Shown piece after piece: positions 39,931 to 63,640 of a stretch of 64,000 bases of DNA. Positions within the stretch are counted from its first letter, which is position 1. Every line of letters starts with the position of its first letter. This DNA is from Clytia hemisphaerica (taxonomy: Eukaryota > Cnidaria > Hydrozoa > Leptothecata > Clytiidae), in the NCBI GenBank assembly GCA_902728285.1, contig CACVBU010000274.1, positions 834,942 through 898,941 on the forward strand, in the 5' to 3' direction. A program made the translations under genes and the position numbers. The notes under the pieces were generated by a model that saw nothing but the letters and a program-made list of their open reading frames with translations, was not told where the DNA came from and did no database searches.

Positions 39931-39940
39931 TATAAAAAGG
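39931..39940 (+). promoter_or_regulatory. TATA box of precursor copy 1
   Basis: TATAAAAAGG starts exactly 73 bases before the ATG, as in copies 2, 4, 5 and 6. The conserved leader ATCATCTTCACAGTTC follows and probably marks the transcription start. Confidence 0.8.
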
Positions 39941-40003: not shown

Positions 40004-41556
40004 ATGAAGATTTGGAAAGCTTTGTTACTTCTCTCCTTCTTGGTCGCAACAGTTTATTGTAAGTAAATACTCCTAACATTTTTATTTCATTCAACCTTTA
40101 CTTCGCAAAAATAAAATCTTTATAGTTATGAGTTACAAGGTGAACTTTACCTTCGTTTGTTACCTAAAAATAGTCTTAATTTATATCAATACTTTTTGTT
40201 CGATAAACAGGCGCTGAAGAATCGTCAAAAGATGAAACACCAGCAGCAGAAGCAGTTGAAGATGAATTAGACGATGAATTACCATTGGATCAAGAAGATG
40301 AAGAAAACGAAAGTGAAAGTGACGAGATTGAACAAGATGAAGATGAAGATGAAGATGAAGATGAAGACGAAGAATCAGAAGATCTCCAAGACCAAGCTGG
40401 TAAATCTTCTCATTCTTAAATGACTTCTGTATTTTTACTACAATTAAACAGCTAGGAAAGGGATTGACAGGATAAAATTAGACAGTGGGGAACACTAAAT
40501 GGAAAAGGCAACTATTGCCTTAACGGGAAATATTTCCCGAACGGGAAGGTTGAAAACTTCCCAAAATGACTAAATTTAACAAATCGGTAAGTTTACCAGC
40601 TTCCCGATCGGGAAAGTGGCCTCTGAGCACTCCGGAAATGCCTGTCGAAAGTTAAAGACTTGTCCCTCTTGTAAAGGAGGGAAAATAAATAATATTCACC
40701 AGGTAGTTAAGAAATCCACCGGGTAATCGCTTTTTAATTCTACTTTCCCCATTCCCAATTAAAAACTTCCCTATTTGGAAACTTTTTTTTCGATCGGGAA
40801 ACAAAAATCTGCTTTGTTTACAAAATTCTATTTCCCGTTCGGGAACGATGAACAGTTCTTGACCAAAACGGGAAACAGAAAAGTGATGAAATTTTCAATC
40901 TTGAAACTATTTCCTTTTCGGGTTATTTTCACCTTCTGCCCGTTCGGAAAATACTTCCCGTTAAGGCAATAGTTGCATTTTTCATGTAGTGGTACCGACT
41001 ATTAGATACTATATTCATAATTTATACACAAACAACCTAGCATACAAAGTTGTAATTCCAATAAATTATCAATAAGAATCATCCTCTTCTTTTAGATGCC
41101 GGACATGTCAGATATTTTCCCAAGAAAAGAATTTCCCGAAAGAGAGTCGATGTTTTCGTCAACAAGAACGTTGGTGAATGCAAAAACACACGCGCTGACA
41201 AACCAAACAAATGCTGGTACCGTCGCAAATGCGTCAAACGTGGAGGTCTCTACAATCGACGATGTGTCCGAGTTGTTGTCCGAAAATATTGCCAATACAA
41301 ATACACAACCACCTGCAAATTCTGCACCAAATATTACATCAGAGCCTGTTATCGAATCAGATACAGCAAGTACAAATCCTACGTCAGATGTTACAGAAGC
41401 AAAGATAAGGAATCATGCAAACGAGATGTTAGCGGAACTTTCAACAAGACTGTTTTGGAAAGCCAGAGATTCTTCAACGTCAAAGGATACCCACACTACG
41501 CTCCACACCCACGCGGCCGATTCCACCACAAACGGGTTCACCCAAAACCATGGTAA
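40004..41556 (+). CDS. Secreted cationic 10-Cys precursor, copy 1 (tail type A)
   Basis: Three exons: 40004-40058, 40211-40399 and 41096-41556, joined in phase 1 at GT-AG introns into 234 residues. Exon 1 is the signal peptide MKIWKALLLLSFLVATVY. Exon 2 is an acidic propiece, mostly Asp/Glu, with a run of Glu-Asp repeats. Exon 3 starts DAGHVRYFPKKR, has basic processing-like sites, then a Lys/Arg/Tyr-rich domain with ten cysteines (CWYRRKC, CKFC and others) and a His-rich tail ending HPKPW. An acidic propiece before a cationic Cys-rich product is typical of antimicrobial-peptide-like precursors (general knowledge); this function is an inference, as I recognise no named family. A shifted frame over exon 3 is also open but is not spliced to the signal peptide. 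Confidence 0.87.
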
Positions 41557-41599
41557 ACATCTCCCAATCAAATCGACCACAACAAAATGCTGAACTGAC

Positions 41600-43900
41600 C
41601 GGACTTGAACATTATTAATATTTTTTTACTACTATATTTTACTTCTAACGTTACTGTAAAATTGATTTTTACACCATCTTGATGAATATGAAAACTTTCA
41701 ACAAAAATTCAATTGTTGCATTTTTTACCATATAACTTTTGGTCTTCAAGAAATTCGAGCGAAAGAAAGAACTAAAGAACGTATATTTCGGTAAAAGAGC
41801 AAAACAGCCTTTATGTTCCAATCCTTTACTATGACGAAAATTTGACTAACTTTTGTTATATGTCAAATTGACTTGGAATTTTGACATTGTGCACGAAATA
41901 TGCAATGGGGCAATATTTGCCACTGGGCTGTTGGTATTTTACAAACTCTAAGGTCCCAAACAGTAACATCAATATAACGTTATTATATACTAAAACTCAT
42001 ACATGAAAATATTTTCAAAAATAATTAAACGGGGGGGGGGGGGGCGGCGTCCTCATAAGCACGGGGTGGTCCGTAAAATATTCAAAAATTAACAACAACC
42101 GTGTGGGTATGTTTATTTGGGGCCTTGGAGTACTGACCCATGATCTATTTTTCTAATCTATTTCAACTCCAACTATTTGTATTAGGATAAGAAAAAGTGG
42201 TTCATCTAGAACTTGGATCAGAGTAAGGTAATATTAGTAGGCTGTCAGAAATGTTAAATTTGGACAGAAGGTTATAGTATGGTGAGCATTTTGGGTAGAA
42301 TACTGAGCATTTTTTATTATAAAACCACGCACTCGGCTTAGATGAAATTTTGCAGACCACCTCAGACCACAGGCTTGTCTGCAAAGTAAACACTCGTACC
42401 TGAAATTTAAGTTATTAAGAAGTAGTTGCTAACCCCTTTCAGAGCCAATTTTGTTATTGTACGTTAATTTGGAGATTAATGAATTTCTCTCACTTGCATC
42501 CTTCAAGTAGAAGAAGTTCCTTGAAAATTAATTTTCTCAATCAATCATAAGCTTTAGTTTAGACGGCTGACTTGTTGCCCAGCCAATTCTAATTGTTAGA
42601 GTAGGCAGACAGTGGACAGAAAGCTGGTAGTTAAAATCTTTGTTTTGAAAAGGTTGAAAAAAGACCTTGTATTGACCTTAAAAGTGGATAATGCATTGAC
42701 TTTAGACAGCTAACTTCATGCCAATATCAATTCAAATTAAAAAGCCAGTAGTTACTAATCCTTGTAGAGCTAAATTTTGTTTTTGTACGTTATTTTGGAG
42801 AGCGTTGATATAAAACAAACATTGTTACAAATGATTCCTTCATCAACTCGATGTCTTAATCGATCATTATTTGAACTGCTTGGTTTTAAGGTATTTCAAT
42901 AAAAAACTTCTTTCATTATCTCCGCTGTTTCCGTTTCTTCAAAAAGGTCCCGTGCAAAAATTTGCACAGGAAAAGGATTGATCCATTCAAAGTCTCGGAT
43001 ATTGGAACTAAACTATCACTCCCCCCTGATATTCAAATATCCGAAAGTCTTCTATTATCATGAATCTACATTGAGTTAAACGAAAACCTGTTCTTTCTTT
43101 AGGTTATTTACAAATTTCTTTTTAACTCGAACCTTTATAACTCAAATAATCTCCCTAACGCGAACAAGTTAGCTTCGCTTTCAGTTATCAATGCCATGTG
43201 AACCTTACTGGGACCCGAAGAGTCGCTTTTTTATCTGTCTACCAGAAGGTACGGGAAGACGGCACTCCTTTTCCTGGCTTGCTCCACTCATCCTTGAAGC
43301 TCTGTATGATTGCCGAGTATCAAATAAGGAGGCGACAAAATACATTTTTCAAATCCGTGGTATGACCTGGCTAATGGATAAAGTCACGACCTTCAACACA
43401 GTAGCCAAATGCCATGGATGGATGAATTAGAAATTGCTTTACAGACTCAAAAGTGTTCAAATTTTTCCAAGGTTTGGAGAATTTTATGTTCAACTTTTTG
43501 TTTTATCCATGAATTCGACCTTTTTGTGTCTTTTTAATTTATATTTTGCATTTTTGTCAAGTTTTTGCTGCCTTTTTAGGAGATTTTCTACTTTTATTTT
43601 CATTTTTTCTAATAATAGAAGTGTTTTACAAGGAATTAATATCGCGCTGGTTGATTTGACCTATATTTGACCTATTTGTTTTTTGGTTAATATGACAAAC
43701 AAGGAAAACAATTAAGTTAAATAGAAGAAAACCACCAGGTCTTTTTTAAATTAAAATTACTCATTCTGCCCATTGAAGAAAAATGTTATTATTCATGGCG
43801 TTAAGGAAGTTCGTCAAGTCTTGGGTTTTTATGATCTAAGATGAGATAAAACCAAATAATAATGGGTAGAAACCCAGTCTCAATTAAACGCCTGCGGACT
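41600..43900. repeat. Spacer between copies 1 and 2, mirrored at 59.6-61.6 kb
   Basis: Several stretches are inverse matches to 59580-61590, for example around 42200-42400 against 61040-61310, and 43185-43440 against 60313-60560. A conserved open stretch with ATKYIFQIRGMTWLMDK-like sequence lies in the latter pair, of unknown nature. At 42030 there is a G-rich MITE fragment. Confidence 0.7.
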
Positions 43901-43917
43901 TCCTCGTGAAGAAATGA

Positions 43918-43925
43918 TATAAAAA
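43918..43925 (+). promoter_or_regulatory. TATA box of precursor copy 2
   Basis: TATAAAAA, 73 bases before the ATG, within the conserved block GAAATGATATAAAAAGGCCA. Confidence 0.8.
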
Positions 43926-43990
43926 GGCCAGCTGAAGCAAGACCAATCATCTTCACAGTTCCACTTGTCAAGATAACAACTCAATTCAAA

Positions 43991-45079
43991 ATGAAGATTT
44001 GGAAAGCTTTGTTACTTCTCTCCTTCTTGGTCGCAACAATTTATTGTAAGTAAAACAATAGAAGAATACATTTTTTTCTCTACTGAGAATCTAGTCTGAA
44101 TCGCAGACCTCTTCAAAATAGTAGGTAGTATAGGAACTCTATAAAGAGCACAAATCCGTTAGTGGATACCAGCAAACTACTGGCGATCCTGTATTCTCCT
44201 TTCCAAATGGTTAGTAGTGCTAACATTTTAAACTTTTTCAATTATTTCTAACAATAGCTTTTGCAAAATTAATCTTAAAAATATCTTCATTTATCAAACA
44301 GGCGCCGAAGAATCATCAAAAAATGAAACTCCTGCAGCAGAAGCAGTTGAAGATGAATTAGACGATGAATTACCATTGGATCAAGAAGATGAAGAAAACG
44401 AAAGTGAAAGTGATGAGATTGAACAAGACGAAGACGAAGACGAAGACGAAGAAGAAGACGAAGAATCGGAAGATCTCCAAGACCAAGCTGGTAAATTCTC
44501 TCGTTCTTAATCAACTTCTGTATTTGTACAAACTAAAGGAAAACGGATTCTTTAAATACACAAACAACCTAGCAAACAAAGATGTAATTAAAACAAATTA
44601 TCAATAAGAATCATCGTCTTCTTTTAGATGCCGGTCATGTCAGATATCATCCCAAGAAAAGAATTTCCCGAAAGAGAGTCGATGTTTTCGTCAACAAGAA
44701 CGTTGGTGAATGCAAAAACACACGCGCTGACAAACCAAACAAATGCTGGTACCGTCGCAAATGCGTCAAACGTGGTGGTCTCTACAATCGACGATGTGTC
44801 CGAGTTGTTGTTCGAAAATATTGTCAATACAAATACACCACCACCTGCAAATTCTGCACCAAATATTACATCAGAGCTTGTTATCGAATCAGATACAGCA
44901 AATACAAATCCTACGTCAGATGTTACAGAAGCAAAGACAAGGAATCATGCAAACGAGATGTTAGCGGAACTTTCAACAAGACAGTTTTGGAGAGCCAAAA
45001 ATTCTTCAACGTCAAAGGATACTACTCACACGGCAAATTCCACCCCAAACGTAGATACCACAAGCCTACCCCATGGTAA
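43991..45079 (+). CDS. Secreted cationic 10-Cys precursor, copy 2 (tail type B)
   Basis: Exons 43991-44045, 44302-44490 and 44628-45079 give 231 residues. The signal peptide differs from copy 1 only near its end (VATIY). The propiece is as long as in copy 1. The ten cysteines of exon 3 are all kept. The tail is of the second type, KGYYSHGKFHPKRRYHKPTPW-like, three residues shorter than type A. Intron 1 differs in sequence from the other copies (it holds unrelated DNA around 44060-44270). Differences from copy 1 in exon 3 are mostly at third positions of this frame, which supports selection on the protein. Confidence 0.87.
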
Positions 45080-45480
45080 ACATACTTACTTCGAATATGG
45101 CATCAATAATGCAGAATGGACCGGACTTAGGACTATGAATATATTATTAAACTTTTTATTTTCCCTGTAAAATTGATTTTTACACCATCTTGATGAATTA
45201 AAAACTCATATCAAAATTTCATCGTTTCTCTATATTATTGCCTCATATACATATTGGTCTAGTAAACGACATACAAAAACATACTTAGGCAACTGACCAT
45301 TGATAGCAAATAGCCTTATTGCTGATTATACTGCGAAAAGTCCTTTGTTTCTCTTCTTTGAAATATTTCATAATTAATAATCCTAAGTAACACTAACTTT
45401 TGGGTTTTAGCCCCTAACTCTTGGTTAAAGAGCTCTCCATAAACTAAAATTTTCGATTTTGAAGTCCGTGGTATCAACTT
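45080..45480. repeat. Conserved 3' flank of copy 2
   Basis: Inverse match to 58100-58509 downstream of copy 5, including TTGATTTTTACACCATCTTG and the CTGATTATACTG region. An ATTAAA near 45144 may serve as polyadenylation signal. Confidence 0.65.
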
Positions 45481-46204
45481 CAAATTTAGCTGCGTGCACC
45501 AAATATGTAACGATTTCGTTGATTAATATCCAGGGTCTCTTAATGTGTGTGGTGATTGTACAGACAGGAAATATGCCTAAATCAGATACAACGGTTTTTT
45601 ATCTGCTTTATTGTTTTTCATTAAAATGTCATTTTAATAAATATAAGCTTTCCTATCATAGTTTCTTGGAGCTGTAGGGACCGTCTGTATTTTTTGACCG
45701 GTCTGCAAAGTACCAAATGCTCGATCGGAGCAACACTTTTTGTTACCAGTCTCATTGATTAAACAAATATGAATCAATTTTAGCTAAATTAACCAAGCCA
45801 ATCGGCTATTACAACAAATTTTCTTAAAATATATGCTTAAGGTACGAACCTTTTTACAGAAAGTTTTGAGGTTTGCAATTGCACCCCAAATTTTTAAGAG
45901 TATTAGAAGGATTCGACGATATTGTAAAATTACGTGTGATATTTGTCTATGTGAAATTATGGAGCGCCGTCAGATTTCGATTATTTTTCTTTGCCTTATT
46001 TTTCAAATGTTGAAATCGCTTATCAAAGAAGCTAGAGGAACGAAAAACAACATCCCTGTCCCGAGATACAGTTCCCCTACTAAAAGAATGAAAATGCGTT
46101 AAAATTCATTTTTGTTTTACTAGCTCTTTGTTGGAATACATATTGTCAAGTTATTGAAAAATCTGTTTATTTTTTCATTCAACAAGTCTCTTTCTTATAT
46201 TAAA
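45481..46204. other. Unassigned sequence
   Basis: Open stretches such as 45833-46102 have no recognisable features. This lies between the duplicated block and the foldback element. Confidence 0.35.
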
Positions 46205-46211
46205 CAATTGA

Positions 46212-49113
46212 TAGGGTAGGGCGTCAACAGTCATTTTTGGGGCAAACTCAGATAATTCAAGATGTAGTGTTTTTTTATGAAAATTTAACCTATTGTGAGG
46301 CATTCTGCGCAATTTTTAAGGTCAGAAGTTCAAAATTGGCCGAACCCCCCTGGGGGTACTGATTCGCACTACAGGCAAAAATTGGAAAAAATGGCATTTT
46401 CTGGCCTTTTCAGGCCTGTAAATATGTCAAAACTATTGCAAATCTTATTTTTTTCACTTGCTGTACTAAATTTTATGAAGAAACAACAAAATAATCATAT
46501 TGGATTGAAAATTGTGCCCATTAGAGCCCTAAAAGAGCCGTTTTAAGCCAATTTTGGGTAGCAAAATGCTTTTTAAGGCCAATTTTGCAAGCTCATAAAC
46601 TTTAAACTGATCGATTCGCATGCCTGAAATTTTCAGAGATGGAAGTCTTCAATAAAGTCTTTAAGCAAAATGAATTTCAAGTTTTTCACTTTTTTCAAAA
46701 AATCATAATGGCGTCTTCAAAAATTGCTTTTTAGCAAAAAAAATCATATTTCTCAAAAAATAGCATTTTTTAAGGCAAGCTTCTACAAACTGAGTTTAAA
46801 TGCTGACTGAAATTTTTTTTGCAGTGATAGTATACTGGAGATACTCCAGGGAAATCAAAATCATTTGCATCTGGGATGGGTCTATGTCCGCCATTATGGA
46901 AATAAAATCCCTGCTAAGAGCCATTTTTCAGGCCAAAAACCCAAATTTGGACTGAAAAAATCTCTAAAAATGTCAATAGACATGAGTCCAAATTTTCTTG
47001 CAGTGATAGTATTTTGGAAATACTACAGGAAAATCAAAGTCATCTGGGCTTGGGATTTGGGTATATCCACCATTTTGGAATTGAAATTCCTGCTAAAACG
47101 CAATATTTCAATCAAAAATCCAATTTTTCACTCAAAAAATCTTAACAATGGCAATAGACATGAACCTAAAATCTTTTTGCAGTGATAGTCTTCTGGAAAT
47201 ACTCTAGGGAAATCAAAATTGTTTGGGTTTAGGATTTGGGTATATCCGCCATTATGGAATTGAAATATGTGTTAAAACTGGCTAAAATACAACGTTTCAA
47301 GCAAAAACCCCGTTTTTGAATAAAAATTACTCTAAAATGACAATAGACATGGACCCAAATTTTTTTGCAGTGATAGTCTTCTGGAAATACTCCAGGGAAA
47401 TCAAAATTGTTTGGTTTAGGATTTGAGTATATCTGCCATTATGGAATTGAAATATGTGTTAAAACTGGTTAAATTGCAACATTTCAAGCAAAAATATTAT
47501 ATTGACTTAAAAACTGCTCTAATATGGCAATAGACATGAACCTAAAATCTTTTTGCAGTGATAATATTCTGTAAATACTCTAGGGGTAAAAACTATTCAG
47601 GTATAACATGCTTCTGGGACCGCATTTTTTAAACTGAAGCCAGTTTTAAAATGTATATAATATTTCAAGCTAAAATTTAATCTTTTTTTGACGAAACAAG
47701 TCTTGAAAATGGAAATGTAAGTGGGCTATAAAGAATTGTTGAGTGAAATGGGATTTTTTAAATAATATATTTCAACTAGTATTTCTAAATTAAAGGATTG
47801 TAAATTCACATTCTTTGCTTAATATGATATACAAAATATTTAGTCAATTATGATGTATCGGATGGAAATGTGTAGCATTTTAACAGAGATTTCATTTCCA
47901 TAAGGGTGGATGTAAACAAATCTCAGACTGAAATGATTTTGTTTTTCCAGGAATATTCACAGAATACTATCACTTCAAAAAAATTTGGGTCCATGTCTAT
48001 TGTCATTTTAGAGTAATTTTTATTCAAAAACGGGGTTTTTGCTTGAAACGTTGTATTTTAGCCAGTTTTAGCACATATTTCAATTCCATAATGGCGGATA
48101 TACCCAAATCCTAAACCCAAACAATTTTGATTTACCTGGAGTATTTCCAGATGACTATCACTGCAAAAAGATTTTAGGTTCATGTCTATTGCCATTTTTA
48201 AGATTTTTTGAGTCAAAAATTGGATTTTTGATTGAAATATTGCGTTTAAGCAGGAATTTCAATTCCAAAATGGTGGATATACCCAAATCCCACGCCCAGA
48301 TGACTTTGATTTTCCTGTAGTATTTCCAGAATACTATCACTGCAAGAAAATTTGGACTCATGTCTATTGACATTTTAGAGATTTTTTCAGTCCAAATTTG
48401 GGTTTTTGGCCTGAAAAATGGCTATTAGCAGGGATTTTTTTTCCATAATGGCGGACATAGACCCATCCCAGATGCAAATGATTTTGATTTCCCTGGAGTA
48501 TCTCCAGTATACTATCACTGCAAAAAAAATTTCAGTCAGCATTTAAACTCAGTTTGTAGAAGCTTGCCTTAAAAAATGCTATTTTTTGAGAAATATGATT
48601 TTTTTTTGCTTTTTTTTGAAGACGCCATTATGATTTTTTGAAAAAAGTGAAAAACTTGAAATTCATTTTGCTTACAGACTTTATTGAAGACTTCCATCTC
48701 TGAAAATTTCAGGCATGTGAATCGATCAGTTTAAAGTTTATGAGCTTGCAAAATTGGCCTTAAAAAGCATTTTGCTACCCGAAATTGGCTTAAAACGGCT
48801 CTTTTAGGGCTCTAATGGGCACAATTTTCAATCCAATATGATTATTTTGTTGTTTCTTCATAAAATTTAGTACATCAAGTGAAAAAAATAAGATTTGCAA
48901 TAGTTTTGACATATTTACGGGCCTGAAAAGGCCAGAAAATGCCATTTTTTCCAATTTTTGACTGTAGTGCGAATCAGTACCCCCAGGGGGGTTCGGCCAA
49001 TTTTGAACTTCTGACCTTAAAAATTGCGCAGAATGCCTCACAATAGGTTAAATTGTCATAAAAAAACACTACATCTTGAATTTTCTGACTTTGACATTTG
49101 ACGCCCCACCCTA
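46212..49113. mobile_element. 2.9 kb foldback element (hAT-like ends)
   Basis: Two long inverted arms (about 46212-47590 and 47930-49113) match closely; the ends are TAGGGTAGGGCGTCAA and TTGACGCCCCACCCTA. CAATTGA flanks both sides (46205-46211 and 49114-49120). Each arm contains a roughly 180 bp tandem repeat whose unit starts near CAGTGATAGT (46824, 47001, 47180, 47370, 47557) and is mirrored in the right arm. No transposase. TAGGG-type ends with a 7-8 bp duplication fit hAT elements, an inference. Mirror-image open stretches (46295-46546 and 48790-49041) are by-products. Confidence 0.88.
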
Positions 49114-49378
49114 CAATTGACTCTCGCTAATACGACCTTTCACTATTCGAATATTTTCATAAATGACACGTCAAAATTTTAATTTACCTTACTTCTTTCC
49201 AATGCAAAAATGGTTCTTTCAAAATTTTTAAAACTCAATAAAATCCACTTGAAAAGAGAGAAACATTTTTATGGCCCACCCGCTAGGATATCTTTCTTCC
49301 CTGAATTAAAATTTACTCGAAAATCCTCAAACAACAAGTGGGGCGACTAAATTTACAATACACTTCCGACCACCTTGA
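49114..49378. other. Short junction sequence
   Basis: Contains ACACTTCCGACCACCTTGATG, similar to the region near 58040 next to the reverse transcriptase remnant. Nothing else recognised. Confidence 0.35.
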
Positions 49379-51955: not shown

Positions 51956-52056
51956 AACCACGAATATCTCATTAAGTGCATGCACCAGGTCTTTCAGTCA
52001 CTGCGAGACTTATCATCTTCACAGTTCCACTTGTCAAGATAACAACTCAACTCAAA

Positions 52057-53074
52057 ATGAAGATTTGGAAAGCTTTGTTACTTCTCTCCTTCTTGGTCGC
52101 AACAGTTTATTGTTAGTAAATACTCCTAACAATTTTATTTTATTTTTCTCGACAATTACTTTTCAAAAAGAACATCTTTATAGTTATACGTTTTAAAGCG
52201 AACTTTACCTTCGTTTATTACCTCAAAATTGTCTTAATTTCTATCAACACTTTTTGTTCGATAAACAGGTGCTGAGGAATCATCAAAAGATGAAACTCCA
52301 GCAGCAGAAGCAGTTGAAGATGAATTAGACGATGAATTACTATTGGATCAAGAAGGTGAAGAAAACGAAAGTGAAAGTGATGAGATTGAACAAGATGAAG
52401 ATGAAGATGAAGACGAAGAATCAGAAGATCTCCAAGATCAAGCTGGTAAATCTTCTCGTTCTAAATTGTTTAATTATATATTTGTACTACAATTAAACAG
52501 CTAGAAAAGGGATTGATAGAATAGAAGTAGATACTCTATTTATACTTTATACACAGACAACTTAAAGCTATAATTTTAACAAATTGTCAATACGAATCAT
52601 CCTCTTCTTTTAGATGCCGGACATGCTAGATATTATCCCAAGAAAAGAATTTCCCGAAAAAGAATCGATGTTTTCGTCAACAAAAACGTTGGTGAATACA
52701 AAAACACACGCACTGACAAACCAAACAAATGTTGGTACAGTCGCAAATGCGTCAAACGTGGTGGTCTCTACAACCGACGATGTGTCCGAGTTGTTGTCCG
52801 AAAATATTGCCAATACAAATACACCACAACTTGCAAATTCTGCACCAAATATTACATCAGAGCCTGTTATCGAATCAGATACAGCAAATACAAATCCCAC
52901 GTCAAATGTTACAGAAGCGAAGATAAGGAATCGTGCAAACGAGATGTTAGTGGAAGTTTCAACAAGACAGTTTTGGAGAGCCAGAAATTCTTCAACGTCA
53001 AAGGATACCCACACTACGCTCCACACCCACACGGCCGATTCCACCACAAACGTGTTCACCCAAAACCATGGTAA
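52057..53074 (+). CDS. Cationic Cys-rich precursor, copy 3 (type A, probably decaying)
   Basis: Exons 52057-52111, 52269-52445 and 52614-53074 would give 230 residues with no stop codon. Three signs of decay: (1) about 180 bp upstream, including the TATA box, is missing compared with copy 4, since the GCACCAGGTCTTT block joins straight to CAGTCACTGCGAGAC at about 51994; (2) the first donor is GTTAGT, not GTAAGT; (3) the first of the ten cysteines is Tyr (GEYKNT). It also has SRKC where others have RRKC. The reading frame is otherwise intact, so the loss is recent or the gene uses another promoter. The tail is type A. Confidence 0.68.
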
Positions 53075-54898
53075 ACATCTCCCAATCAAATCGATTTAAC
53101 GTAAACGCATAGCGGACTGGACTAACGGACTACAATTTCGATTATTAAATTTTACTTTCACTTTTACTTATAAATTGTAAAATTGACTTTTACGTTATTG
53201 TAAAATTGACTCTTACATTTTTATGATGAAATGCATCAATGACTGAAAACTTGTTACTGAAAACCATGAATGTTTTTTTTTTCAAAATAGTTTATCCTTT
53301 GTTAGTTTTTCTGTATTTTTAGTAGATAAACTCATGTGAAAGCTTTGAAATTAAGTAGCAGAGTATTCAGATCTAAATAACAAGGGCTGCTTACCAAGGC
53401 TATAAGCAATATAAGTTTATGCCATTTAATCTGACTAATAGAAAAGGCAACATAAGAGTCCTCATGGGAAACCTTCGACACTTCGTGAGAAAAAGCAAGA
53501 GATTCGATCAACGGATTACCAACTCATAGAAAACACTCCTCGTTGGGTCAACATTTTCTACAAGTTTGCTACCAACTATTTCCAAGCGGACGTTTTGTTG
53601 AACGACAATTTCCGACATAAGTCTCTCCATCGGTTTTTTCTCCATGTTGACGTCAACCTGAACAGACATTTCCCTGGTATACCTAGTTTCCCAGAACGGA
53701 TGATTTGCCCACAAACATCGGCCGGCGGAGGTTTCCCCGAAAAGTTTTGATTGACCAACCAAATAGCCTAAATATACATAAATTTCTTGGAATTTCTAGA
53801 AGCGAAATCTTATTCAGACTAACATACGCAGATTCTCAAGAAAAGGGGAATTTTTTTTACAAAATCAAAGCTGAAGACAGCTTTGTCCCCTTACACTTCA
53901 ATGACGAGCCCTTAAATGATTTTTTACCAACAGACTCATACTAAATGATTCTGCAATTCACTCTACAAGTCAAATCAACATGTCTGCTTTCGATTTTGGA
54001 ATCTAAATTACTTGAGCTTCCCTAAACGACCATTCCAAAGGTTGGGATAACGTTATGTCATGTTACTTATTGACTGGATACCACCAGTAGAAACTTAGGA
54101 GGGCCATGACCTAAACATAATTTGATAGCACCAATAAAGGCAGTTCAATTGGGCATAGATTATATCTAATCGTGGGTGACATAATGTTCAACTATCACAT
54201 CAGGTGAAATTATAAGCATTTAAATATGGAAAGCACGTCTAAGCTATGATTTCACTCACACACTTGCATTTTTCTTAGTCTACCCTCAAATACATCATAA
54301 CACGTTAAACGTATTGGGGATAGCCCTCACTAACATTTGATATCAAGGGGTAAACAGGTCTCATTTTTGTCAAGTGAACGGCGAAAACATAAAACGAGTC
54401 GTTGGTCTGAATATCGCATTTATCATTACATAAGCATACTTAAAGTAGTGAATACAGTGAATTTTAAACAATTTAGCCAGCCTAGCGAGAACAAAGTCAA
54501 CCCCTGGGGATATTTTATTAAGTTTTGAAAGAAAATACGAAAAACAGGGAAACTAAATTAAAGGAAGAAATTTTATGGCATTATCGATAAAAGCCCGATC
54601 AGGAAAATGTTCTATTGGCATTCCGTCTGGTCGAAGAAAAGAACAGGGAATTGGTCATTGAATAAATGTCCATCGGGAAAATTGCCATCGAGGGGTCCTA
54701 TGGGAATTGTCGATCGCAAATGAAAAAAGCTGTAAAGAAAACAATCATTCTTAATGATTCATGTTAAGAATTTTTCTTTCGTCAAGAAAATGTAAAAATC
54801 AATTTCACATAAGTTTAAAAGTAAAGATAATAGTAAAAAATAATGATAATGTCCAGTCAGTTCAGCATTTTGTTGTGGTCGATTTGATTGGGAGATGT
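53075..54898. other. Centre between the plus- and minus-strand copies
   Basis: Holds the 3' flanks of copies 3 and 4 and the unidentified open stretches at 53442-53944. Apart from these I see nothing; this is where transcription from both sides would converge. Confidence 0.4.
53442..53944 (+). pseudogene. Unrecognised coding-like region, probably frameshifted
   Basis: Open without a stop from 53442 to 53750 (102 codons; contains NTPRWVNIFYKFATNYFQAD), then a second frame (53705-53944) with KGNFFYKIKAEDSFVPLHFN. The frames differ by two bases and no good splice pair joins them, which suggests a decayed gene. The minus strand of 53508-53762 is open too, so direction is uncertain. I recognise no family. 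Confidence 0.3.
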
Positions 54899-56033
54899 TT
54901 ACCATGGTTTTGGGTGAACACGTTTGTGGTGGAATCGGCCGTGTGGGTGTGGAGCGTAGTGTGGGTATCCTTTGACGTTGAAGAATTTCTGGCTTTCCAA
55001 AACAGTCTTGTTGAAAGTTCCGCTAACATCTCGTTTGCATGATTCCTTGCCTTTGCTTCTGTAACATCTGACGTAGGATTTGTATTTGCTGTATCTGATT
55101 CGATAACAGGCTCTTATGTAATATTTGGTGCAGAATTTGCAGGTGGTTGTGTATTTGTATTGGCAATATTTTCGAACAACAACTCGGACACATCGTCGGT
55201 TGTAGAGACCACCACGTTTGACGCATTTGCGACGGTACCAGCATTTGTTTGGTTTGTCAGCGCGTGTGTTTTTGCATTCACCAACGTTCTTGTTGACAAA
55301 AACATCGACTCTATTTCGGGAAACTCTTTTCTTGGGATAATATCTGACATGTCCGGCATCTAAAAGAAGAGGATGATTCTTATTCATTATATGCACCACT
55401 GCAATATGACTTCAGGAAATTATGCAACTTTTCTCTTTTTGTTCCACCCAATACGTCACTTTTTCTTTTGTTTAAGTGACGTATTGGGTGGAAAATTTTC
55501 AAAGTTCTCAGAAGACTCTCCAGTGGTGCATATAATGAATTGATAATTTGTCAAAAATACACCTTTGTTAGCTAGGTAATGTGTATAATGATGTATAAAT
55601 TGCGTATCTGCTTCAAATACTTTGTATTAATGACAGAACGAGGGAATTTACCAGCTTGATTTTGGAGATCTTCAGATTCTTCGTCTTCTTCTTCGTCTTC
55701 GTCTTGTTCCATCTCATCACTTTCACTTTCGTTTTCTTCATCTTCTTGAGCCAATGGTAATTCATCGTCTAAGTCATCTTCAACTGCTTCTGCTGCTGGT
55801 GTTTCATCTTTTGATGATTCCTCAGCGCCTGTTTATCGAATAAAATGTGTTGATATAAATTAATACAATTTTGAGGTAACAAACGAAGGTAAAGCTCGCT
55901 TTAAAACATAACTATGAAAATTTTCTTTTTGCGACATAAAGGTTGAATGAAATAAAATTGTTAGGAGTATTTACTTACAATAAACTGTTGCGACCAAGAA
56001 GGAGAGAAGTAACAAAGCTTTCCAAATCTTCAT
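54899..56033 (-). CDS. Secreted cationic 10-Cys precursor, copy 4 (tail type A)
   Basis: Exons 56033-55979, 55828-55652 and 55359-54899 give 230 residues. The signal peptide is as in copy 1. The propiece is four codons shorter than in copies 1 and 2, has Met where others have Ile in DEMEQ, and ends LQNQA. Exon 3 keeps all ten cysteines and ends HPKPW. A synonymous change (ATA for ATC, Ile) creates a TAA in the competing shifted frame, showing that only the Cys-rich frame is maintained. Intron 2 contains a 159 bp MITE (55382-55540). Confidence 0.87.
55382..55540. mobile_element. MITE inside intron 2 of copy 4
   Basis: Ends ATTCATTATATGCACCACTG and CAGTGGTGCATATAATGAAT, with an inner hairpin CCACCCAATACGTCAC / GTGACGTATTGGGTGG. 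Introns of copies 5 and 6 show the uninterrupted sequence. Confidence 0.85.
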
Positions 56034-56098
56034 TTTGAATTGAGTTGTTATCTTGACAAGTGGAACTGTGAAGATGATAAGTCTCGCAGTGACTGGCC

Positions 56099-56106
56099 TT
56101 TTTATA
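56099..56106 (-). promoter_or_regulatory. TATA box of precursor copy 4
   Basis: TATAAAAA on the minus strand, 73 bases before the ATG. The upstream block to about 56440 is shared with copy 5 (59563-59880), including the GCACCAGGTCTTTCTTAAAT and CAGCGCTGCGATATTATTTC phrases. Confidence 0.8.
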
Positions 56107-56506
56107 TCATTTCCTCACGAGGAAGTCTGCAGGCGTTTAATTGAGACTGGGTTTCGGTCCATCAATGTTTGGTTTTATTATTTCTTAATTTTGAAAACCC
56201 AAGACTTAACGAGCTTCCTTAACGCTACAAACAATAACATTGCTCCCCAATCGGCAAAATGAGTAATTTTGATTTAAGAAAGACCTGGTGCATGCATTTG
56301 CTAAGATATTCGTGGTTTTCTTCTATTTGACTTAATCGATTTCCTTGTTTGTCAAATTAACCAATAAACATAGGCTAATATAGGTCAAATCAACCAGCGC
56401 TGCGATATTATTTCCTTGTAAACAGTTGCATTGTTAGAGTGAAACGACTGAATGTACTTTTGAAAAGTGCAGTATTTGTTTATATTGCAGTAAGGCAATA
56501 GTGAAT

Positions 56507-57044
56507 TTTTAATATTTGCCACTTACAAAATATAAAGTTCTACTTGATGTAGCCCACAAAACTGTGGCATGTTATACATATTCTGTTAGGCCAATTATCC
56601 GCGAGTCTGAAAATTTAAGAATCGCAATGAAAAAATTTGATGAAGAAGAAAATGAAGAGGACTTTTGCGAAGAAGAGTATTTCAACTTTGAAGAACTTAG
56701 TTTCGGCGAAGAAAAAACATTTTGAAATTTTTTTGTGGTATAGCTTTTATCGAACTAAAATTACTTTTTTGGAAAATTTTTCTAAAAGCTTATTTGCTTC
56801 ATAATCTTGAAAATAGTGCTTTTTGACCAATTTTCCATCCTAATTTTTCATAGAAAAACAGCCATAACTTTTGATGCATTAATTAAGAAAATTTTTCCGA
56901 AAAATGTAAAACAGTTCAATTCTTTGCGGATAGTTTGAAAAAACTTCGAAACAAAAACAAGGTTAATCACCCATTAAAACTTAGCACTTTTTATAAAAGA
57001 AGGTGATGCAACGTCTTTTTAAAGTTCATAACGTCATTTTTGTA
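56507..57044 (+). repeat. Acidic ORF repeat, copy c
   Basis: The longest copy: an open stretch at 56516-56725 reads MPLTKYKVLLDVAHK, then SVRPIIRESENLR and an acidic end with FNFEELSFGEEKTF. The far end carries GTTCATAACGTCATTTTT as at 1337. It ends where the orphan promoter of the precursor family begins. Confidence 0.55.
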
Positions 57045-57135
57045 AAGATGATTAGTCTTGCTTCGGATGGCCTTTTTATATCATTTATTAATGAGGAAGT
57101 CCGCAGGCGTTTAATTGACACTGGGTTTCTATCCA
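57045..57135 (-). pseudogene. Orphan promoter of the precursor family
   Basis: Matches the sequence upstream of copy 6 (62720-62810) almost exactly, with TATAAAAA at 57080-57073, but stops before the leader. No exon follows on the minus strand; the acidic ORF repeat replaces it. It marks a lost gene copy. Confidence 0.75.
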
Positions 57136-57424
57136 TTAGTATTCGGTTTTATATTTTGATATTAATGAAACCCAATTCTAATGATCTTCCTTAACGCTAA
57201 AACTTTAAACTGAGGTCTATAATATTAGAAAGAATTTTGCAGTGGCTTTTATGGATTGTGGGTAGCATATATTAATCATCTTCTTTGTTGTGAATATAAA
57301 CTAGTTGATAGGTGCGCGCCTTCGAATAAATAACATTATTAAGAAAGATGCTAACTTTGTTTATCATTCCAATACTTCAGGCGTAAAAACGCGAGCAGAA
57401 TCTTCTGCGAGTATGAAAAATCGC

Positions 57425-57960
57425 AAAATTTACGACAAGTTCAGTTCTTGAGAACAGCGAATATGGTCTAGGATAAGCGAAAACAAGGATGAGTCATCAG
57501 CAAATAGTTTGAACATGGAAATAATGTAAATAAAAAAAAAGAGGAGTCCGAGAATAGATCTCTGAGGTACGACGGCCAAGATTTTCGTCCAATCAAAAGC
57601 TTGACCATCAAGAAACACCGGTCCGTCTCCCGTGAAGAAAATTCTGGAATAATAAAAGAAGAGAGCCAGAAACACCATATGACTTAAGTTTGAAAATTAA
57701 ACCATTATGCCAAACTCTGTCAAAAATTTTGGAAATATCAAGGAATACTCCACGAGTATCTAGGGGTCGATCAATATCAAAACCATTCAGGATGTCGTGT
57801 GTTATGGATAACAGCTGAGACAAACAAGAGTCACCCTCGCGGAAACCAGACTGGGAATTTGTGAAAAGATTGTTGTTTTCAAATAGGTGTAGACGGAGTC
57901 AAAGGTTTTTCAACGATTTTTCCAAAAATAGGCAGAAGAGACACTGTCCGTCAGAATCTT
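57425..57960 (-). pseudogene. Non-LTR retrotransposon reverse transcriptase remnant 1
   Basis: Two overlapping frames carry reverse transcriptase motifs: LLSITHDILNGFD and VFLDISKIFDRVWHNGLIF (motif A region), then KILAVVPQRSILGLLFF (motif B region) and LFADDSSLF (the ADD catalytic motif). The order and motifs fit Jockey/CR1-type LINEs. A frameshift separates the halves, and there is no endonuclease. It repeats at 63105-63640. Confidence 0.8.
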
Positions 57961-58509
57961 GAGATAGTATAGAAAAAATGCTCACTACGGCATCATTTCT
58001 TTTTGTTTCTTTGATTTTCTCCATAAAAACAACATCAAAGTGGTCGGAAGTGTATCAAGTTTGGTCGTTCCACTGGTTGATTGCGGGATTTTCGAGTAAA
58101 CTTGAACAAATTTGAAGTCGATACCATAGATTTCAAATTCGAAAATTTTAGTTTATGGAGAGTTCTTTAACGAAGAGTTAGAGGCTAAAACTCCAAAGGT
58201 TAGTATTAATTATGAAATATTTCAAACTTGATAAATGAAGGACTTTTCTCAGTATAATCAGCAATAAGGCTATTTACTATCAATGGTCAGCTGCCAAAGT
58301 ATGTTTTTGTATGTCGTTTTTTACTCAAGGACCAAAATGTATATAAGAAATAATATAGAGAAACGATGAAATTATGATATGAAGTTTTTAATTCATCAAG
58401 ATGGTGTAAAAATCAATCTTACAGGGAAAATAAAAAGTTTAATAAAATATTCATAGTCCTAAGTCCGGTCCATTCTGCATTGTTGATGCCATATTCGATA
58501 TAAGCATGT

Positions 58510-59489
58510 TTACCATGGGGTAGGCTTGTGGTATCTACGTTTGGGGTGGAATCTGCCATGTGGGTAGTATCCTTTGACATTGTAGAAATTTTGGCTCTCC
58601 AAAACTGTCTTGTTGAAAGTTCCGCTAACATCTCGTTTGCATGATTCCTTGTCTTTGCTTCTGTAACATCTGACGTAGGATTTGTATTTGCTGTATCTGA
58701 TTCGATAACAGGCTCTGATGTAATATTTGGTGCAGAATTTGCAGGTGGTTGTGTATTTGTATTGGCAATATTTTCGAACAACAACTCGGACACATCGTCG
58801 GTTGTAGAGACCACCACGTTTGACGCATTTGCGACGGTACCAGCATTTGTTTGGTTTGTCTGCGCGTGTGTTTTTGCATTCACCAACGTTCTTGTCGACG
58901 AAAACATCAACTCTCTTTCGGGAAACTCTTTTCTTGGGATAATATCTGACATGTCTGGCATCTAAAAGAAGAGGATGATTCTTACTGATAATTTATTGGA
59001 ATTACAGCTTTGTTTGCTAGGTTGTCTGTGTATAGAAAGAATCCGTTCTCCTTTAGTTAAATATTTGTACAAATACAGAAGTTATTTAAGAACGAGAGAA
59101 TTTACCAGCTTGATCTTGGAGATCTTCTGATTCTTCGTCTTCGTCTTCATCTTCGTCTTGTTCAATGTCGTCACTTTCACTTTCGTTTTCTTGATCTTCT
59201 TGATCCAATGGTAGTTCATCGTCTAATTCATCTTCAACTGCTTCTGCTGCTGGAGTTTCATTTTTTGATGATTCTTCGGCGCCTGTTTATGGAACAAAAT
59301 GTGTTGATAAAAATTAAGACAATTTGGAGGTAACAAACGAAGGTAAAGTTCGCTTTAAAACTTATAATTAGAAAGATGTTCTTTTTGCGAAGTAAAGGTT
59401 GAATGAAATAAAGTTATTAGGAGTATTAACTTACAATAAACTGTTGCAACCAAGAAGGAGAAAAGTAACAAAGCTTTCCAAATCTTCAT
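58510..59489 (-). CDS. Secreted cationic 10-Cys precursor, copy 5 (tail type B)
   Basis: Exons 59489-59435, 59282-59106 and 58961-58510 give 227 residues with standard GT-AG introns. The propiece has SSKNET and ESDDIEQ variants. All ten cysteines are present. A few changes set it apart (FVDKNV for FVNKNV; SQNFYNVKGYYPHGRF at the start of the tail). The tail ends HKPTPW, as in copies 2 and 6. Downstream 58100-58500 mirrors the region behind copy 2. Confidence 0.87.
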
Positions 59490-59554
59490 TTTGAATTGAG
59501 TTGTTATCTTGACAAGTGGAACTGTAAAGATGATTGGTTTTGCTTCGGCTGGCC

Positions 59555-59562
59555 TTTTTATA
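59555..59562 (-). promoter_or_regulatory. TATA box of precursor copy 5
   Basis: TATAAAAA on the minus strand, within ATTATATAAAAAGGCC, 73 bases before the ATG. Confidence 0.8.
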
Positions 59563-59579
59563 TAATTTCTTCACGAGGA

Positions 59580-61590
59580 AGTCCGCATGCGTTTAATTGA
59601 TACTGGGTTTCTGTCCATTAATATTTGGTTTTATTTTTTCATAGATTTTGAAAACCCAAGACTTGACGAACTTCCTTAACACCGCAAACAATAACATTGC
59701 TCCACAATCAGCAAAATGAGTAATTTTGATTTAAGAAAGACCTGGTGCATGCACTTGCTAAGATATTCGTGGTTTTCTTCTATTTGACTTAATCGATTTC
59801 TTTGTTTGTCAAATTAACCAAAAAACAAAGGCCAATATAGGTAAAATCGACCAGCGCTGCGATATTATTTCCTTGTATAAAAACTTGTCTTATTAGAAAA
59901 AAGATAAAAGTAGAATTTCACCTATAAAATCTCCTAAAAAGGCAGCAAAAACTATAACATCTTGACAAAAATAGAAAATAGAAAATAAGAAGACACAAAA
60001 AGGTCGAATTCATGGATAAAATTCCCAAAACCTTGGAAAAACTACAAAAGATTTGAAGGGAGTCTGTAAAGCAATGAAAATAAACATGTTCTACCATAAT
60101 AAATTTTATTTTTGTTTCGATTTTGGGAATTTTAGAGTCTTGCGGGTCCATAAAACAAATAATCAAATTGGTCTCGCCTAATAAAAAATATATAAAATTG
60201 ATACTAGACCATTTTTTTTTTTTTTTGTTCTTCAAGAAAGAGATATTATCAGGCTAGTATTTTAATCAAGTTATTCTAGTTTCAGCAATAGCAGTTATTG
60301 AGCAATTTCTTAATTTAATTATCCATGGCATTTGGCTACGGTGTTCAAGGTCGCGGCTTTAACAATTAGCCAGGTCATACCAGGGATTTGCGAAATGGAT
60401 TTTGTTTGATGCTCAGCAATCATACAGAGCTCTAAGGATGAGTGAAGAAAGCCACGAAAAGGAGTGCCATGTTCCCGTACCTTCTGGTAGACAGATAAAG
60501 AAAAACGAGTCCTCTGGTCCCATTCAGCTTTGATTGAAAACTTCATTCAACTTTATGTTACTATCACATGCAAAAATAGACAGCTGTCGATTTTGCAGTT
60601 TTCGAGTACATTTCTGATTCGGGTGAGATAGAATTTCTTAAGTCAGCTTTAATTAAAAGCACACCAGACCATCTAAAAGAAATGTTGGAAGAAAGAGGCA
60701 ATGAGTCATTTCATAAATAGGAAAAAGTATTACAGTATAGTCTCCATAACTCAAATACGCACGGGGAACACAAATTCTTTCAAGTTATGGAAATTTTGAG
60801 ATATGTTGGAGTAAGGTTTATAAGGAAGGCATTGCTAACTGAAGAAGAAACTAAATTGTTTGCGTTAGGGATATATTCGAATGAAACGTTAAGAAGTTTT
60901 CGGTTAATTCAATGTAGAAACATGACAACAGTCACTACGTTCAGGCTATTTTGAAATGTTTTCAATGAACCTCGGGATTATTAATCCCAAATCACCCTCT
61001 AAACCATGTTATTACTAGTATTAATAACTTAAATTTCAGGTACGAATTTTTACTTTGCAGACAAGCCTGTAAAATACAGTCGGCCACCCTTCAGAACCCA
61101 GGGGGTATAACAAGCTTCTGAAAAGCCTTTCGACGATAAAATAATCATCTGAGGTGGTCTGCAAAATTTCATCTATGCCGAGTGCGTGATTTTTTAATAC
61201 AAAAATGCTCAGTATTCTGCCCAAAATGCTCATCATAGCAAACTGCTTGTCCAATTTTGACATTTCTGACAGCCTACTAATGTTACCAATACCTAACTTT
61301 GATCCAAGTTTCAAATAAAAAACTATTTCTTATCCTAAGACAAATAGTTAGAGTTGAAATAGATAAAAAAGAGAAATCATGGGCCAGTACTCCGAGGTCC
61401 AAAAATAAACCTACCCGGTTAATAGTAAAGGATTGGAACATAAAGTTATACGATTTTGAGGGAAAAAGGCTGTTTTACACTTTTGCCGAAACATACGTTC
61501 TTTAGTTCTTTCTTTCGCTCGAATTTCTTGAAGACCAAAATGTATATGGTAAAAATAAAACAGTCCAGTTTATTTTGAAAATTTTAATAT
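59580..61590. repeat. Spacer between copies 5 and 6, mirror of 41.6-43.9 kb
   Basis: Inverse match in pieces to the spacer between copies 1 and 2 (see 41600-43900), including GACCTGGCTAATTG and the TCTGTCTACCAGAAGGTACGG phrase. It shows the two-gene block was duplicated in inverse orientation. Confidence 0.7.
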
Positions 61591-61705
61591 TCTTCAAGAT
61601 GATGCAAAAACCAATTTTACAGGGAAAATAGAAAGTTTAATAAAATTCATAGTCCTCAGTCCGGTCCATTCTGCATTGTCGATGCCATATTCGAAGTAAG
61701 CATGT

Positions 61706-62683
61706 TTACCATGGGGTAGGCTTGTGGTATCTACGTTTGGGGTAGAATTTGCCGTGTGGGTAGTATCCTTTGACGTTGAAGAATTTTTGGCTCTCCAAAA
61801 CTGTCTTGTTGAAAGTTCCGCTAACATCTCGTTTGCATGATTCCTTGTCTTTGCTTTTGTAACATCTGACGTAGGATTTGTATTTGCTGTATCTGATTCG
61901 ATAACAGGCTCTGATGTAATATTTGGTGCATAATTTGCAGGTGGTTGTGTATTTGTATTGACAATATTTTCGGACGACAACTCGGACACATCGTCGGTTG
62001 TAGAGACCACCACGTTTAACGCATTTGCGACGGTACCAGCATTTGTTTGGTTTGTCAGCGCGTGTGTTTTTGCATTCACCAACGTTCTTGTTGACAAAAA
62101 CATCGACTCTCTTTCGGGAAACTCTTTTCTTGGGATAATATCTGACATGTCCGGCATCTAAAAGAAGAGGATGATTCTTATTGATAGTTTCTTCGAATTA
62201 CAGCTTCGTTTGCTATGTAATGTATAAAGTATTAATAGAGTAACTGTTTCAGATACTTTGTATTAATAACAGAAGTCAATTAAGAACGAGAGCATTTGCC
62301 AGCTTGGTCTTGGAGATCTTCAGATTCTTCGTCTTCGTCTTCATCTTCGTCCTGTTCAATCTCATCACTTTCACTTTCGTTTTCTTCACCTTCTTGATCC
62401 AATGGTAATTCATCGTCTAATTCATCTTCAACTGCTTCTGCTGCTGGAGTTTCATCTTTTGATGATTCTTCGGCGCCTGTTTATCGAACAAAAAGTGTTG
62501 ATAGAAATTAAGACAATTTGGAAGTGACAAACGAAGGTAAAGTTCGCTTTAAAACTTATAATTAGAAAGATGTTCTTTTTGCGAAGTAAAGGTTGAATGA
62601 GATAAAATTGTTCTGAGTATTTACTTACAATAAACTGTTGCAACCAAGAAGGAAAGAAGTAACAAAGCTTTCCAAATCTTCAT
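61706..62683 (-). CDS. Secreted cationic 10-Cys precursor, copy 6 (tail type B, GC donor)
   Basis: Exons 62683-62629, 62476-62300 and 62157-61706 give 227 residues. The second intron starts GCAAAT where all others have GTAAAT, so it would be a GC-AG intron, a rare but functional class; otherwise it would be a splice mutation. In exon 3 all ten cysteines are present, with KLC for KFC and CYKSK for CYRSK. The promoter with TATA is intact. The upstream block is of a second type, shared with the orphan promoter at 57045. Confidence 0.8.
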
Positions 62684-62748
62684 TTTGAATTGAGTTGTTA
62701 TCTTGACAAGTGGAATTGTGAAGATGATTAGTCTTGCTTCGGATGGCC

Positions 62749-62756
62749 TTTTTATA
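62749..62756 (-). promoter_or_regulatory. TATA box of precursor copy 6
   Basis: TATAAAAA on the minus strand, 73 bases before the ATG. Confidence 0.8.
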
Positions 62757-63104
62757 TCATTTATTAATGAGGAAGTCCGCAGGCGTTTAATTGACACTGG
62801 GTTTCTACCCATTAGTATTCGGTTTTATATTTTGATATTAATGAAACCCAATTCTAATGATCTTCCATAACGCTAGATTTTAAACTGGTGTCTATAATAT
62901 TAGAAAGAATTTTGCAGTGGCTTTTATGGATTGTGGGTAGCATATATTAATCATCTTCTTTGTTGTGAATATAAACTAGTTGATAGGTGCGCGCCTTCGA
63001 ATAAATAACATTATTAAGAAAGATGCTAACTTTGTTTATCATTCCAATACTTCAGGCGTACAAACGCGAGCAGAATCTTCTGCGAGTATGAAAAATCGCA
63101 AAAT

Positions 63105-63640
63105 TTACGACAAGTTCAGTTCTTGAGAACAGCGAATATGGTCTAGGATAAGCGAAAACAAGGAAGAGTCATCAGCAAATAGTTTGAACATGGAAATAAT
63201 GTAAATAAAAAAAAAGAGGAGTCCGAGAATAGATCTCTGAGGTACACCAGCCAAGATTTTCGTCAAATCAAAAGCTTGACCATCAAGAAACACCGGTTCC
63301 GTCTCCCGTGAAGAAAATTCTGGAATAATAAAAGAAGAGAGCCAGAAACACCATATGACTTAAGTTTGAAAATTAAACCATTATGCCAAACTCTGTCAAA
63401 AATTTTGGAAATATCAAGGAATACTCCACGAGTATCTAGGGGTCGATCAATATCAAAACCATTCAGGATGTCGTGTGTTATGGATAACAGCTGAGACAAA
63501 CAAGAGTCACCATTGCAGAAACCAGAATGGGAATTTGTGAAAATATTGTTGTTTTCGAAATAGGTGTAGACGGAGTCAAAGATTTTTCAAAGATTTTTCC
63601 AAAAATAGGCAGAAGAGACACTGTCCGTCAGAATCTTGAG
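63105..63640 (-). pseudogene. Non-LTR retrotransposon reverse transcriptase remnant 2
   Basis: Duplicate of the remnant at 57425-57960, with the same frameshift region and motifs (VFLDISKIFDRVW, KILAGVPQRSILG, FADDSSLF). Here GVPQ is kept where the first copy has VVPQ. It was duplicated together with its neighbours rather than inserted separately. Confidence 0.8.

Follow-up and report, generated by a model that had tools for sequence, protein, structure and literature searches.

Six three-exon genes at positions 40004-62683 (22.7 kb) of a 64,000-nucleotide stretch of Clytia hemisphaerica DNA, here called the window, encode predicted secreted precursors in which a strongly acidic propiece precedes a strongly basic domain with up to ten cysteines. 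This ten-cysteine family is apparently without a name, and its cysteine pattern and predicted fold match nothing significant in the libraries searched. Tentatively, and at a little under an even chance, we favour the reading that its members are charge-masked polycations with an affinity for anionic surfaces, used most likely in defence; this proposal draws on sequence, a structural model and analogy with known precursors. More broadly, the family may have a part in defending or building the surface.

The final gene models bear out the three-exon structure given in the preliminary description of this DNA, with both introns in phase 1 in all six genes and no internal stop in any predicted precursor. 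The copies share exon 1, with ATGs at 40004, 43991 and 52057 on the forward strand and at 56033, 59489 and 62683 on the reverse strand, and this exon encodes, judged by eye, the signal-peptide-like start described before. Additionally, the junction between exons 2 and 3 is found already joined in P0001, a Clytia database protein. The genes are as follows:

40004..41556, forward strand: g1, exons 40004-40058, 40211-40399 and 41096-41556; 234 residues, ten cysteines, tail type A
43991..45079, forward strand: g2, exons 43991-44045, 44302-44490 and 44628-45079; 231 residues, ten cysteines, tail type B
52057..53074, forward strand: g3, exons 52057-52111, 52269-52445 and 52614-53074; 230 residues, nine cysteines, without a TATA box
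54899..56033, reverse strand: g4, exons 56033-55979, 55828-55652 and 55359-54899; 230 residues, ten cysteines, tail type A
58510..59489, reverse strand: g5, exons 59489-59435, 59282-59106 and 58961-58510; 227 residues, ten cysteines, tail type B
61706..62683, reverse strand: g6, exons 62683-62629, 62476-62300 and 62157-61706; 227 residues, ten cysteines, tail type B

The ten conserved cysteines first attributed to every copy hold for five of them but not for g3, in which tyrosine replaces the first cysteine. The intron 1 donor of g3 is GTTAGT and its TATA box has been lost through a 183-bp promoter deletion; judging from its sequence, g3 is probably a decaying copy. Intron 2 of g6 has a GC splice donor. 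In the five genes other than g3, the motif TATAAAA starts exactly 73 bp before the ATG, as had been reported:

39931..39937, forward strand: TATAAAA of g1
43918..43924, forward strand: TATAAAA of g2
56100..56106, reverse strand: TATAAAA of g4
59556..59562, reverse strand: TATAAAA of g5
62750..62756, reverse strand: TATAAAA of g6

The strong, shared regulation that this spacing had suggested is plausible from the promoters, with the exception of g3.

The contrast in charge between the two parts of the precursor is as pronounced as originally described, with propiece/mature values for g1-g6 of -36/+36, -35/+36, -31/+32, -30/+35, -30/+35 and -31/+36, giving near-neutral precursors (net 0, +1, +1, +5, +5 and +5). 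In the cluster copies, the mature part of about 150 residues is rich in lysine and tyrosine and ends in a His-rich Pro-Trp tail, which comes as two types rather than the single one first proposed, is partial in the relative P0002 and is missing from divergent relatives. Sixteen of 21 aligned rows contain a candidate dibasic site around mature positions 16-17, which g4 and four relatives lack; the site falls inside a strand in the AlphaFold2 model. Basic pairs are common by chance in a protein as basic as the mature part.

Our protein database search returned a single named match, an uncharacterized C. hemisphaerica protein that is 97% identical, and profile searches of ENA contigs found further relatives. 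Thirteen database relatives with 38-46% identity to the g6 domain show the ten-cysteine pattern. In an alignment of 21 rows (A6), ten cysteines are kept in 20 and a core charge of +20 to +43 in all; the core is 119-133 residues long, or 151 in P0016. Left out of A6 were P0007, an ABC-transporter fragment with about 20 tail residues on an apparently chimeric contig, and P0017, whose reading frame departs from the family past the fourth cysteine. In the relative P0003, which is about 46% identical, a propiece of charge -33 is followed by a domain of +38; P0003 is the only divergent relative in which a propiece is visible, the other divergent rows being single-exon readings. Among the six copies, mean NG86 dN/dS is 0.19 for the whole gene, 0.10 for the propiece and 0.24 for the mature part (15 non-independent pairs); by these whole-gene averages both parts are under purifying selection, with no sign of diversifying selection. 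The low mean dN/dS, together with the recurrence of the cysteine pattern in the database relatives, shows that the cluster is not a product of chance.

The profile and structure searches that the preliminary description had called for leave standing its statement that no named family is recognisable. Pfam returned no family for the mature domain up to E 1, and a scan of the 21 rows up to E 10, in which HMMER filters remove most matches above about 0.1, gave 18 weak families, none of them credible. The best of these, CCDC142 (E 0.01, four rows), and a furin-like cysteine-rich region (one row, 0.046) were taken as noise. Neither the sequence nor either of two profiles had a PDB match below E 0.66, and pattern searches of the prokaryote and viral collections yielded 16 and 43 matches, respectively, with no confirmed relative among them. 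A housekeeping family, the kind of match that was to count against the description, was found in none of the Pfam, PDB and protein searches.

AlphaFold2 models the mature domain as a long beta-sheet (pLDDT 79.3, pTM 0.49); an earlier run on seven close rows gave a pLDDT of 40. Foldseek found no structural match at E <= 0.001, and neither a C-type lectin nor a midkine chain was among the matches listed. The Foldseek lists, all above E 0.001, contained many long hairpins belonging to the pores of complement, perforin and gasdermin, and many entries for LptE, a likeness that we tentatively take as a shared arrangement only. Amphipathicity was assessed for seven segments in nine of the 21 rows, and only strand 57-89 and scattered rows of its halves passed 0.05. 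Along this strand, a segment picked post hoc, cationic and hydrophobic residues alternate at p < 0.05 in five of nine rows at 180 degrees, without significance in the remaining four, and in none of the nine at 170 degrees. One conceivable, though unlikely, interpretation is a new animal protein family that has a fold of its own. Its amphipathic beta-sheet would be very long, locked by disulfides and strongly cationic on one face, and its precursor would neutralise itself until the two halves were freed and able to insert into membranes or condense with polyanions. Such a protein would be a charge-switched effector, unrelated to defensins or pore formers.

In the charge-masked reading that we favour, the acidic propiece would keep the basic part electrically neutral in the secretory pathway, so that large amounts of precursor could be produced with no binding to membranes, nucleic acids or glycans, and having several copies under the same kind of TATA promoter would boost output. 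After release, the two parts would separate, perhaps at the candidate dibasic site, and the beta-sheet, now free and held together by as many as five disulfides, would bind bacterial envelopes, mucus, glycosaminoglycans or chitin; the most likely use would be protecting the animal's surface or early stages from microbes. The near-neutral precursors and the same design in P0003 argue for this reading, as do the basic ten-cysteine core kept across A6, the purifying selection on both parts, the similarity of the core among the six copies, the model of long beta strands, the alternation along strand 57-89 and the precedents of Hydra antimicrobial peptides and alpha-defensins. Against it stand the size of the mature part, which is large for an antimicrobial peptide, the gaps in the candidate dibasic site and its place within a modelled strand, the loss of the strand alternation at 170 degrees, the structural-looking repeats of P0016, the visible propiece in a single divergent relative and the averages that give no sign of diversifying selection.

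Precursors of comparable design are known. The precursor of eosinophil major basic protein has an acidic propiece that balances a basic protein of well over 100 residues, much like that of the cluster; it has a C-type lectin fold, and no C-type lectin was among the 18 Pfam families listed for the 21 rows. In alpha-defensin precursors, as described in excerpts of PMC3308943, an anionic prosegment, thought to hold the peptide inactive, likewise stands before a cationic, disulfide-rich part. The alpha-defensin domain is small, with six cysteines and three disulfides, in contrast to the larger ten-cysteine domain here, and defensins were absent from the Pfam matches of the mature domain and the 21 rows. 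Hydra antimicrobial peptides, including periculin, are characterised in the available part of PMC10945409 by a signal peptide, bipartite charge, a complex cysteine pattern, clustered near-identical paralogues and lineage restriction. The cluster shares with them the acidic/basic charge behind a signal peptide (here by eye) and the clustering of near-identical paralogues, so the likeness to antimicrobial or defence precursors in the preliminary description fits in design, while its worry over size stands. That paper found no homologues of these peptides in Clytia or Hydractinia, and our profile searches, which require shared 5-residue words and return mostly matches without names, gave no Hydra-named match. 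The pairing of an acidic propiece with a cationic disulfide-rich effector is already known from vertebrate defensins and Hydra antimicrobial peptides. Charge masking in the cluster, if true, would mean that this safety device had been invented independently once more, and would offer an effector family open to testing in a jellyfish that serves as a laboratory model.

Doubtful, but deserving of weight, is a structural or adhesive role, in which the basic Tyr/Lys/His part would be cross-linked in chitin-protein perisarc, larval glue or mucus, with the acidic part providing solubility until secretion; the family would then belong to the exoskeleton of hydroids or the glue of their larvae. The Lys/Tyr-rich composition and His-rich tail of the cluster copies fit such a role, as do the Lys/His/Pro-rich repeats in front of the P0016 domain, which look structural. 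In the available text of PMC5316283, the perisarc of Clytia gracilis is chitin-protein with glycosaminoglycans, whereas that of a cultured Clytia sp. was negative for a glycosaminoglycan stain, and adhesion is one option given for Clytia Cys-rich secreted proteins by the authors of the PF1 study (PMC12225738, in excerpt). However, core tyrosines range from 3 to 17 over the 21 rows of A6 and divergent relatives have no His-rich tail, so the cross-linking residues are not the conserved part, and the ten conserved cysteines suggest a folded domain. Since tyrosine is not conserved in the core, we gave less weight to a DOPA-glue as the central function.

Cnidarian secreted Cys-rich products in multiple copies are often nematocyst proteins, and the closest named protein is cnidarian; a capsule, tubule or venom component of stinging cells with a removable propiece is nevertheless improbable: the Pfam matches of the 21 rows up to E 10 include no toxin or nematocyst family, and no minicollagen-type repeats were seen by eye. 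Least probable is a heparin-binding signal of the midkine/pleiotrophin type, acting on cells via glycosaminoglycans. Midkine is a similarly basic, ten-cysteine, beta-structured factor, matching the cysteine number, strong basic charge and predicted beta structure here, but its family is absent from the 18 Pfam families and from the PDB sequence-profile matches, and many near-identical copies suit bulk production over signalling.

The ten-cysteine family was not found in the available portions of a Hydractinia cell atlas (PMC11876637) or a review of medusozoan defences (PMC12194522), and is unnamed among the matches listed from open-licence PMC literature on Clytia. Compared by description only, it is possibly identical with PF1, a family published from neurosecretory cells of the Clytia planula (PMC12225738, in excerpt). 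PF1 proteins are described as short, secreted Clytia products of several homologous genes with conserved cysteines, in which their authors found no similarity to known proteins or folds. The cluster family is likewise from Clytia, multi-copy, predicted to be secreted, conserved in its cysteines and unmatched; PF1 is said to have no non-Clytia relatives, whereas the cluster family has relatives in ENA contigs.

Finally, the six copies agree at 92.4-97.0% in the cysteine core. Their 3' UTRs are far less alike, dropping to 57-66% except within the pair g1/g4 and within the trio g2/g5/g6, a contrast which suggests that the core has been homogenised between copies. Gene debris is also present, the second item lying outside the interval originally noted:

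57040..57160, reverse strand: orphan promoter matching that of g6, with TATAAAAAGGCC running down from 57080; the match ends before the ATG and no gene follows
36939..37007, forward strand: exon-3 remnant, 69 bp, 95.7% to g2

On sequence grounds, this remnant is a dead additional copy.

As the preliminary description had proposed, six copies of one gene are present at 40004–62683 (window GC 32–38%). In the final gene models all six copies (g1–g6) have three exons and two introns, every intron being of phase 1, in agreement with the gene structure it had given.

Copies in the cluster, by start position and strand
g1: start 40004, forward strand
g2: start 43991, forward strand
g3: start 52057, forward strand
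g4: start 56033, reverse strand
g5: start 59489, reverse strand
g6: start 62683, reverse strand

Exon 1 encodes a hydrophobic N-terminal start that, judged by eye, resembles a signal peptide, exon 2 an acidic propiece of 58 or 62 residues, and exon 3 a basic part of 150 or 153 residues. The longer propieces are those of g1 and g2, and since both contain a six-base repeat (AAGATG or AAGACG, Tandem Repeats Finder), their length was probably set by repeat expansion. Propiece and mature charges are opposed in all copies (g1 −36/+36, g2 −35/+36, g3 −31/+32, g4 −30/+35, g5 −30/+35, g6 −31/+36), and the precursors are therefore near neutral. The His-rich Pro-Trp C-terminal tail is of type A in g1, g3 and g4, and of type B in g2, g5 and g6. 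Intron 2 of g1 (40400–41095) measures 696 bp, compared to 137–292 bp in the other copies, and seems to consist in part of an inverted-repeat element inserted there.

A search with the mature domain retrieved A0A7M5X7E5 (P0001), an uncharacterized Clytia hemisphaerica protein matching at 97% over the full length, which belongs to a cluster of five sequences and differs from every window copy, which puts the source in Clytia hemisphaerica or a near relative; the predicted exon 2/exon 3 junction is already joined in P0001, showing the same splice in an independent gene prediction. A profile of the window copies and the relative P0002 yielded 7 proteins with E ≤ 10 out of 531 candidates, of which P0003–P0006 and the chimeric P0007 were new, and a second profile, enlarged with first-round relatives, found 16 among 499 candidates; all relatives except P0001 derive from ENA contigs. 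The family alignment covers six window rows and 15 database rows and excludes P0007 and P0017. Of its 21 rows, 20 have all ten cysteines, g3 being the exception; core charges span +20 to +43, and tyrosines number 3 to 17. In a tree with good support on only 3 of its 18 inner branches, P0001 and P0002 group with the window copies in a single clade (100/99), separate from the others. The charge-balanced design is also present in P0003, a relative ~46% identical, in which a 64-residue acidic stretch (−33) lies immediately upstream of the +38 domain. Other divergent rows, P0016 excepted, begin close to the boundary of exon 3, which leaves their propieces out of view. As P0003 and P0017, whose reading frame is broken, come from contigs of equal length (180,117 bases), neighbouring copies may exist in that genome too.

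Mean NG86 dN/dS was 0.19 (propiece 0.10, mature 0.24; averages over 15 non-independent pairs), and the exon-3 core is 92.4–97.0% identical across all six copies. Over the first 110 bases past the stop codon, 3′ UTR identity was 90.1% between g1 and g4 and 91.7–94.5% among g2, g5 and g6, falling to 57–66% between these groups and likewise for g3 against all. Core dS (0.09–0.22) stays below the divergence of the UTRs, suggesting that the core was shaped by gene conversion as well as purifying selection; alternatively, the low UTR figures could reflect 3′ ends that are not homologous.

The TATA box described for five copies, 73 bp ahead of the start codon, was recovered, with TATAAAA starting at that distance in five of the six. 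Relative to g4, g3 is missing 183 bp including the TATA box, and similarity between the two upstream regions resumes 62 bp ahead of the start codon. The ten conserved cysteines described for the cluster hold in five copies but not in g3, where the first mature Cys is replaced by Tyr, leaving nine. Core identity is also lowest for g3 (92.4–93.7% to the others, versus 95.2–97.0% among the remaining copies), and from its sequence this copy is probably silent or decaying. Intron 2 of g6 has a GC rather than GT donor, so that its splicing may be less efficient. A 69-bp exon-3 remnant (36939–37007) and an orphan g6-type promoter (57040–57160, minus strand; TATAAAAAGGCC from 57080 down), a near-identical match to the sequence upstream of g6 that ends before the ATG and has no gene behind it, are traces of earlier copies that died.

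The likely role of the propiece is to mask the basic part through synthesis and storage, by analogy with alpha-defensin precursors, for whose prosegments a comparable role is proposed in excerpts of PMC3308943. A dibasic pair at mature positions 16–17 (16 of 21 rows) could serve as a cutting site, a role weakened by its absence from g4 and four relatives and by its position within a predicted strand. The freed basic part would bind polyanions. We favour a role in microbial defence, since the architecture and clustering resemble those reported for Hydra AMPs (PMC10945409, in excerpt). Close behind stands a structural role: passages of PMC5316283 describe the Clytia gracilis perisarc as chitin-protein with glycosaminoglycans, although they also report a negative glycosaminoglycan stain in cultured Clytia sp. 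The relative P0016 carries structural-looking Lys/His/Pro-rich repeats ahead of its ten-cysteine domain, in propiece position, an architecture of a different kind, which hints at a structural branch of the family. In addition, the authors describing PF1, a family of Cys-rich secreted proteins from Clytia planula neurosecretory cells, leave open adhesive as well as antimicrobial roles (PMC12225738, in excerpt).

The g1–g6 family could be this planula family, and it is not named in open-licence PMC text on Clytia among the matches listed. We rate it as a nameless family and cysteine pattern within the known class of charge-balanced cationic precursors, with identity to the planula family possible.

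Other features in the window
315–998: self-reverse-complement stretch, 82% over 690 columns
15572–16780, reverse strand: long ORF from a DEG/ENaC channel gene, matching Pfam ASC at E 5.1e-21 (profile 41–455)
20467–20829, reverse strand: upstream ORF, part of a DEG/ENaC channel gene (ASC, E 2.2e-4, just under cut-off, profile 1–48)
35722–35798, forward strand: tRNA-Thr(AGT) (ARAGORN and Rfam, 62.4 bits)
46205–47464 and 47878–49119: large inverted repeat between g2 and g3 (1.26 kb at 94.5% identity) that contains tandem repeats
57040–58319 and 62716–63996: 1.28-kb repeat, 98.2% identity, from the g6 promoter upstream

The two DEG/ENaC ORFs are probably two exons of one gene, and the inverted repeat looks like a palindromic mobile element. 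The orphan promoter is part of the 1.28-kb duplication, both copies of which contain a reverse-transcriptase fragment (57608–57898, RVT_1 E 7.4e-9; 63263–63586, RVT_1 E 3.4e-6, under the curated cut-off).
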